A stretch of DNA of 64,000 nt. Source: Chryseobacterium sp. CH25 (GTDB lineage: Bacteria; Bacteroidota; Bacteroidia; Flavobacteriales; Weeksellaceae). Shown one piece after another: positions 2,796 through 4,496 of this stretch. The notes under the pieces are model-generated. The model did no database searches, was not told the origin of the DNA, and was given only the letters and a program-made list of their open reading frames with translations. A program made the position numbers and the translations under genes. Where the stretch lies: assembly GCF_004119455.1 (NCBI RefSeq), contig NZ_NRQT01000012.1, positions 1 through 64,000 on the forward strand, written 5' to 3'. Position 1 is the stretch's first letter. Each line of letters opens with the position of its first letter.

Positions 2796-2904
2796 AGAGT
2801 AATAGAGGTTGAAATCCCCTGAAAATTACTCTGTTCCTAGTTTATTTTTTTAATAGTTTATTATTTGAAGGCCCTGAAAGTTCAACCAATTTTCAGGGTT
2901 TTTT
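2796..2904 (+). ncRNA. Candidate structured small RNA, two hairpins with complementary loops and a terminator
   Basis: Hairpin 1 pairs AGAGTAAT (2796-2803) with ATTACTCT (2825-2832). Hairpin 2 pairs CCCTGAAA (2872-2879) with TTTCAGGG (2891-2898) and is followed by T6, a rho-independent terminator for the + strand. The loop of hairpin 1 contains GGTTGAA (2807-2813) and the loop of hairpin 2 contains TTCAACC (2881-2887), an exact 7-nt kissing match. CCCTGAAA also occurs in hairpin 1 (2817-2824), so the terminator's 3' arm has an alternative partner. No + strand gene ends upstream for this terminator to serve, and the next + strand gene starts 700 nt later. No known RNA family was recognised. 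Confidence 0.55.
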
Positions 2905-3618: not shown

Positions 3619-4496
3619 ATGCATAAATTAGCTCTTTTCAGGTTGCACTTAATAATATTTTTATGGGGATTCACTGCAATTTTAGGAAAACTGATTCATG
3701 CCAATGCTCAGATCCTTGTATTTTACAGAATGTTGTTCGCAGCAATTTTTCTTTTTGTATTCATCAGGATATATAAAAAAGAAAGCATTAGGGTTTCAAA
3801 AAAAATATTTTTCAGCTGGCAGCAATAGGTTTTACCATGGCACTTCATTGGTATTGCTTCTTTTATTCAATCAAAGTTTCTAATGTCTCCATTGCGTTGA
3901 GTTGCTTGTCATTATCTACACTCTTTGCCTCTATTTTAGAGCCTGTTATCTTTAAAAGAAAGATAGATATTTCAGAAGTGGTGATGGGAGTAGTGATTGT
4001 AGCCTGTATTTTACTGATCTTCAAAACAGAGTTCCAGTATAAGGAAGGAATTATGTATGGCGTTCTTTGTGCAGTCTTTGGAACTGTATTTTCAGTTTTT
4101 AATGGTAAAATGTTTGGAAAAACGAGTTCAGGGAATATTATATTTTACGAAATATTCTGTGGTTGGTTTATTTTAATGTTATTTTATTTGTTTTCTGGGC
4201 AAATTTTTCAAATGAATGAAATAAACTACCGCGATATAGCGTTAATATGCTTGTTAGCCAGTGTTTTCACTGCTTTTCCAATGCTGGAATCAGTGAATTT
4301 AATGAAGTATATATCGCCTTTTACTCTAATTTTAACAGTTAATTTAGAACCTGTTTACGGAATTATACTAGCTTTTTTTATCTTTGGGGAATCAGAACAT
4401 ATGAGCCCAATATTTTATATTGCTTCAGGAGTTATGATACTGGCAATCATTGCGAATGGATTAATAAAAGCCAGGAAAACTAAAAACTTTAACTAG
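3619..4496 (+). pseudogene. EamA/DMT-family permease, frame broken at an A8 run
   Basis: Two pieces of one membrane transporter of the drug/metabolite family lie in different frames. Piece 1 (3619-3828) begins MHKLALFRLHLIIFLWGFTA, the usual first helix. Piece 2 continues in another frame with IALSCLSLSTLFASILEPVI and later helices to 4496. The frames meet at eight A (3798-3805). With nine A the text reads on through SKKNIFQLAAIGFTMALHW, restoring a normal protein of about 292 residues with roughly ten membrane segments. Everything else in the gene looks intact. It may be a sequencing undercall, a slippage-controlled gene or a fresh mutation. The substrate is unknown. Confidence 0.85.

Follow-up and report, generated by a model that had tools for sequence, protein, structure and literature searches.

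The long conserved single-stranded seed of GcvB, an RNA that is G/U-rich and Hfq-dependent in enterobacteria, acts on many mRNAs. In Bacteroides the small RNAs GibS and FopS pair at mRNA start regions, FopS at susC-type mRNA, and both associate with the RRM-1 protein RbpB; for FopS, 14 paralogues are described, and its 5' stretch is single-stranded (PMC11697453, in the portion of the article available to us). Rfp18 of Flavobacterium psychrophilum is predicted to pair via its third stem-loop (PMC9723704, available portion). Our search of the open-licence literature yielded no description of the RNA reported here, nor any named small RNA (sRNA) of Chryseobacterium or Elizabethkingia. The accessible part of a cadmium study of Chryseobacterium sp. 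HGX-24 lists 'sRNA' reads at ~9% in three of six samples and at ~40% in the rest; its text calls such reads very low, unlike the read-count table, and the RNA is not named in that part (PMC13209784). Here we describe an element in Chryseobacterium sp. CH25, found in a 64,000-nucleotide stretch of contig NZ_NRQT01000012.1 (the window, to which all positions refer), that very probably represents a new sRNA family of the Weeksellaceae with an unusually constrained linker.

The window RNA resembles GcvB in its long conserved single-stranded stretch; unlike that of GcvB, the stretch is A/U-rich, and it occurs in a family in which none of 148 genomes contains an Hfq over the Pfam cut-off (5 of 14 controls were positive), the one sub-threshold score being 21.1 bits in genome G168. 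The host Hfq that a Hfq-dependent base-pairing sRNA would require was accordingly not found in the family. Its likeness to FopS and GibS, taken from their description in the available part of PMC11697453, consists of a conserved single-stranded seed next to a terminator and of membership in a phylum that possesses RRM-1 proteins; unlike FopS, the window RNA is single-copy, each of the 59 family genomes with a match showing a single one, and it has a 5' hairpin. Start-region targeting is a property of FopS and GibS in that source, and for the window RNA a proposal. Rfp18, compared by its description in the available part of PMC9723704, is likewise a conserved flavobacterial sRNA, but the window RNA differs from it by forming two hairpins and lacking a clear homologue beyond the family.

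The putative small RNA occupies positions 2796–2904 of the + strand, and the genus as well as part of the family share it as one conserved unit. A non-coding RNA of ~109 nt, extending from the predicted start to the end of the terminator T-tract, is probably encoded here. Its minimum free energy is -26.9 (z -3.2), which 2 of 200 dinucleotide shuffles equalled; its conservation across the genus shows that the whole element goes beyond chance. An earlier sequence-only reading had proposed a stand-alone RNA of this length, and such an RNA is supported by its own predicted -7 box, its terminator and two hairpins with paired changes. That reading had also stated that no + strand gene ends before the terminator or begins soon after it. 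The first likely + strand gene behind the element indeed begins at 3619, and the + strand ORFs of at least 40 aa listed before the element lie antisense inside the neighbouring carboxyltransferase gene or further upstream. The locus combines the hallmarks of an intergenic sRNA, namely its own promoter box, an intrinsic terminator, no coding capacity and conservation as a unit; the invariance of the linker at every position, together with one-base length changes in three loci (L093, L130 and L131), argues against coding.

A sigma-A type -7 box, TAACTTTA, is located at 2784–2791 of the + strand (Bacteroidota consensus TAnnTTTG), just 5' of hairpin 1, where the sequence-only reading had noticed a near match. 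A box of the form TA[ACT][ACT]TTTA[CT] is found within 110 bases before the core at all 95 genus loci; the 33 upstream regions that lack it all come from other loci. The flavobacterial -7 box spans -12 to -5 (PMC9723704, available portion), so that the predicted start coincides with the first base of hairpin 1, at 2796. Some 38 nt before the box stands a TTTAAC element (2745–2750, + strand), perhaps an activator or upstream promoter site: TTAAC begins 36–39 nt 5' of the -7 box in 118 of 122 distinct box-bearing upstream regions, against a background of 3 occurrences in 10,980 bases at -160 to -70.

Hairpin 1 (2796–2832, + strand) is variable in sequence and consists of an outer stem, AGAGTA/TACTCT, and an inner stem that is typical of the relatives and weak in the window; its arms in the window are AGAGTAAT (2796–2803) and ATTACTCT (2825–2832). 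Among 91 distinct hairpins, pairs 2–4 are invariant, pair 5 varies yet remains paired in 83 (67.3 in shuffles, 0 of 500 as high) and pair 8 is paired in 45 (33.3 in shuffles, 0 of 500 as high); in most hairpins pairs 7 and 9 stay open, being formed in 21 and 17 of the 91, respectively. The intrinsic terminator (2872–2904, + strand) is made up of the stem 2872–2880/2890–2898, with the arms CCCTGAAA (2872–2879) and TTTCAGGG (2891–2898), followed by T6 at 2899–2904. Changes on both sides occur at eight of its nine pairs over 42 distinct family sequences, in which 97.1% of cells are paired (0 of 500 shuffles as high); within the genus taken alone the stem is near-invariant. Both hairpins thus exhibit paired changes, which the sequence-only reading had named as support.

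The most conserved feature is one that the sequence-only reading had left out of its list of features: an A/U-rich and mostly unpaired linker of 36 nt between the hairpins (2834–2869, + strand), which contains a tandem repeat. Its sequence, TTCCTAGTTTATTTTTTTAATAGTTTATTATTTGAA, is identical in 94 of the 95 genus loci, the remaining locus having one T fewer. This count was made on all 95 loci because the rows of our alignment A1 (85 distinct sequences of 93 loci) had been preselected by a linker pattern. The fourfold sites of the adjacent carboxyltransferase gene, by comparison, differ by 54% pairwise in the 73 of 95 genus loci that were usable. The tandem halves, TAGTTTATTTTTTTAA (2838–2853) and TAGTTTATTATTTGAA (2854–2869), match at 14 of 16 positions and give the linker two copies of UAGUUUAUU, a repeat score that was reached by 1 of 2000 shuffles. 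Over 85 sequences the mean unpaired probability is 0.62 for the linker, 0.35 for the 5' part and 0.18 for the terminator, and the consensus fold predicts a weak hairpin within the linker. This unpaired middle part, near-unchanged between species, is probably the working part of the RNA and its functional core.

Beyond the genus the linker is mostly recognisable, its T-run being the main site of variation, and the 5' hairpin region is different. Two copies of [TA]AGTTTA are present in 33 of the 46 sequences of set A3, one copy in 12 and none in 1; A3 holds only 13 genus sequences and omits the doubtful L154, L156 and L158 and the near-duplicates L138, L139, L140 and L141. The second copy is truncated in locus L459. 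In several loci of genus g26 (among L119–L127) an additional CCTAAAATAGTTTCATG-type element stands immediately before the linker and may be a third ATAGTTT copy.

A DNA search of the genus returned a match in 97 of 98 genomes and complete RNA genes in 95, with one strong match each. Genome G021 carries a fragment at a contig end, the weak match in G090 was judged not to be the RNA, and G091 gave no match; five genus genomes show a second weak and short match that was not counted as a copy. At the level of the family, covariance model R1 matched 59 of 148 genomes and 9 of 33 genera, with 20 of the 59 in the genus that contains Chryseobacterium and 39 outside it. Two of these matches, L154 and L156, are doubtful by sequence and are the sole members of g10 and g21 among the nine matched genera. 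A more sensitive run over 12 genomes with a model of linker and terminator (R2) added three hits, each beside a carboxyltransferase gene: L459 (g7) and L461 (g4) add two genera to the list, and L460 falls in g11, a genus found before. When named genomes were scanned by pattern, Chryseobacterium, Kaistella, Elizabethkingia and Amniculibacterium were among the matches listed; at least 74 named records (74 of 80 among the matches listed) combine TTCCTA, core and terminator, and six of the matches listed (L244, L247, L253, L254, L271 and L281), in which the rest of the RNA is absent, were taken as chance. NCBI taxonomy assigns the first three names to the Weeksellaceae and Amniculibacterium to the Flavobacteriaceae.

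Wider searches delimit this distribution. In the order, R1 matched 21 of 196 genomes, a single one of them outside the family and weakly (G278, 40.8 bits); the place concerned, L158, has no carboxyltransferase gene beside it and scores 27.4 bits with R2. Of 395 class genomes, 25 gave an R2 match at E <= 0.01, including three of the genus; the other 22 genomes contribute 25 places which by eye resemble chance terminators behind genes (L174 and L175, cut loci, were left out), three of them sharing what reads as an RpoD-like coding end, and this class search thus revealed no convincing RNA outside the family. A synteny search of the sister family f3, probably the Flavobacteriaceae (41 genomes, 30 loci), gave no significant R2 hit (best 16.6 bits, E 0.62), nor did 18 loci of other genera of the family (best 18.6 bits, E 0.14). 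Locus L476, before an EamA-like ORF, is a weak possible relative at 17.3 bits (E 0.25).

None of the 4227 families of Rfam 15 reaches its gathering threshold at the element. Nine sub-threshold hits at E <= 10 include neither 6S-Flavo nor Flavo-1, two families that were considered; mir-87, at 23.6 bits against a cut-off of 49 (E 0.01), was taken as chance. The hit to BTnc049 (RF04179) of Bacteroides, at 16.0 bits against a gathering threshold of 81.9 (E 4.5), does not make the window RNA a member of that family. The two are nevertheless alike by eye: BTnc049 also has a 5' hairpin, a terminator and ~110 nt (L159 and L160), and its linker holds two UAGUUUA copies 15 nt apart, as in the plan of the window RNA. 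The reverse test on BTnc049 locus L159 was weak, with 21.5 bits for R1 (E 0.0073 in 9 kb) and 13.9 bits for R2 (E 0.35). The neighbours differ, being by eye LytTR-like regulator and histidine-kinase-like ORFs, with no carboxyltransferase match beside L159 or L160. RF04179 matches three of 149 class genomes; the third match, L161, scores 35.7 bits, under the cut-off, lies just behind a ClpB-like ORF by eye and was left aside. The likeness could be convergence.

The genomic setting of the RNA is conserved on one side and variable on the other. Directly upstream and divergent lies the gene of an acyl-CoA carboxylase carboxyltransferase subunit (1012–2640, - strand; Pfam Carboxyl_trans, E 8.8e-144), an arrangement found in 128 of 130 loci (93 of 95 in the genus and 35 of 35 in other genera); at the two exceptions the picked ORF is on the other strand (L030) or another gene is present (L061). 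The 130 are those of 138 loci that passed the core pattern; the eight that failed are L096, L097 and L098, taken not to be the RNA, L132, L152, L154, L156 and L158, and of these L132 and L152 do adjoin a carboxyltransferase gene. The other flank is formed in the window by a GNAT acetyltransferase gene of the - strand that ends at 2920. Over the 130 loci the downstream gene is an EamA transporter in 91, GNAT in 24 and another gene in 13, with none found in 2; in the 95 genus loci the figures are 66 for EamA and 24 for GNAT. Because the downstream gene varies, the RNA is an independent unit rather than the tail of any single downstream gene. The EamA-type transporter of the window (3619–4496, + strand) is split into two ORFs (3619–3828 and 3837–4496) where relative L031 has one frame of 300 aa, through either a frameshift or a sequencing error. 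Elsewhere in the window, a DUF805b RNA motif (RF02914) scores over threshold at 577–611 of the + strand, just 5' of an ORF of 65 aa (631–828, + strand) with a double-glycine-like leader (NLKTLNGG) and several cysteines that looks bacteriocin-like by eye.

mRNA partners were sought in 1.2 Mb of the relative G069, roughly a quarter of its genome with 1042 ORFs, with the first ATG taken as the start codon, so that some sites are misplaced; no target was accepted from this partial search. The 7- and 8-mers complementary to the linker show at most a mild excess near starts over a second-order background, ATAAACTA occurring 11 times against 5.7 expected and AAATAAT 99 times against 67.6. Within the first 400 kb, 10-mers are in excess near starts (40 of 314, where shuffles gave 14.5 and 0 of 200 came as high), which from 9-mer counts appears to derive mainly from the A-run, words of which are under-represented near starts against the second-order background. 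Predicted duplexes are no better than those of shuffled linkers, with a mean energy at starts of -10.80 against -11.11 and 38 starts below -14 against 48.4. The only susC-like candidate of the FopS/GibS type is AATAAACTA, directly before the start codon of a gene whose protein reads as a TonB-dependent receptor; among 30 fetched relatives, 9 keep the site, 4 more have it as AATAAACT with an upstream shift of 1 nt, and 17 carry an altered version. The orthologue of this receptor-like gene in the genome of the window shows up as two matches (G000:C111:617464-619793), of which the first contains an in-frame TGA. A 13-mer before a sodium/solute symporter-like gene is the longest site; it overlaps the apparent end of the upstream coding frame and drifts, and was not accepted.

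How, then, might the element work? The sequence-only reading had the RNA switch between folds, with kissing loops and an alternative pairing of the terminator arm as the toggle. Both hairpins, T6, the loop motifs and the competing arm are indeed exact at the positions given for them in the window, where loop 1 (GGTTGAA) and loop 2 (TTCAACC) are exact complements and CCCTGAAAAT (2817–2826) is complementary to ATTTTCAGGG (2889–2898). The relatives, however, do not share this design: in locus sets that include named records possibly repeating other genomes (91 distinct hairpins), the perfect 7-nt loop-loop match is confined to the window, 1 of 152 loci (6 nt in 4, 5 nt in 13 and, commonest, 3 nt in 80), as is a competing complement of at least 10 nt, 1 of 157 loci (9 nt in 5, 8 nt in 6). 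Judged by this comparison, the loop-loop match and the competing arm are species-specific coincidences, at most local additions, and both were dropped as features of the RNA; a conserved toggle is very unlikely, and of the proposed switching stand-alone RNA the second half survives and the first does not. We give just as little credence to the notion that there is no RNA gene at all and that the locus holds a DNA-level element, or a convergent terminator of the GNAT gene with a chance hairpin 1. The - strand GNAT gene does end close by, but GNAT is the downstream gene in a minority of genus loci, and the T-tract, the promoter box and the covarying stems are all oriented along the + strand. A regulator bound to its locus, acting on the divergent carboxyltransferase gene through the shared promoter region or by pairing with its mRNA, is improbable too. 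It would account for the near-invariant adjacency and for the two genus genomes without the RNA, G090 and G091, which give no carboxyltransferase match at E <= 1e-150 either, so that RNA and neighbour are missing together. Against it, the two genes lie on opposite strands without overlap (2640 versus 2796), the duplex of the linker with the carboxyltransferase start region, at -13.2, does not differ significantly from that of shuffled linkers (-11.9 +/- 1.5), and the poor R2 scores at the 30 f3 loci and the 18 other-genus loci imply that the carboxyltransferase gene often stands without a recognisable RNA. This gene serves as a syntenic marker and is at most a candidate target.

An own promoter box and terminator, no explanatory reading frame and an exposed invariant stretch fit a trans-acting sRNA, and we lean, with slightly better than even confidence, towards one in which the linker is a doubled seed that pairs with mRNA start regions independently of Hfq. 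On this model a sigma-A promoter of its own would drive the transcription of a single-copy RNA, which the intrinsic terminator would end; hairpin 1 and the terminator would shield its 5' and 3' ends, respectively, and the two UAGUUUAUU copies would pair with several mRNAs, at AAUAAACUA-like sequences within their A-rich start regions, and lower their translation, without Hfq and possibly aided by the RRM-1 protein of the cell. Our preference for this model comes from precedent and architecture and not from a proven target, and in our judgement 36 invariant nucleotides are long for a seed. The repeat and the invariant length would both be explained if the two UAGUUUAUU copies were instead twin sites for an RNA-binding protein, for example of the RRM-1 type (the genome of the window encodes one RRM_1 protein), which the RNA titrates or delivers; the failure to find good mRNA targets in G069 is also in keeping with this. 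Known sponges carry many sites, though, and here there are two in an RNA with one strong match per genome; moreover, the repeat is less strict in other genera, as the single-copy members of A3 and the truncated copy of L459 illustrate. We regard protein binding as a tentative possibility, which stands close behind the seed model. Broader and rather doubtful is the idea that the linker forms the core of an ancient class of Bacteroidota sRNAs with BTnc049 as its Bacteroides branch. The doubled UAGUUUA would then act without Hfq and with RRM-1 proteins as a general controller of outer-membrane and transport genes at their start regions, and the number of its partners would have frozen it in the Chryseobacterium group.

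Of these readings the doubled seed remains the one we favour. A stretch of 36 nt without a substitution in 95 genus loci, beside a gene whose fourfold sites differ by about half, points to a strong function, and this strong constraint falls in bacteria in which no Hfq was detected (148 family genomes). The RNA offers a concrete and deletable locus at which sRNA action in the phylum may be studied.
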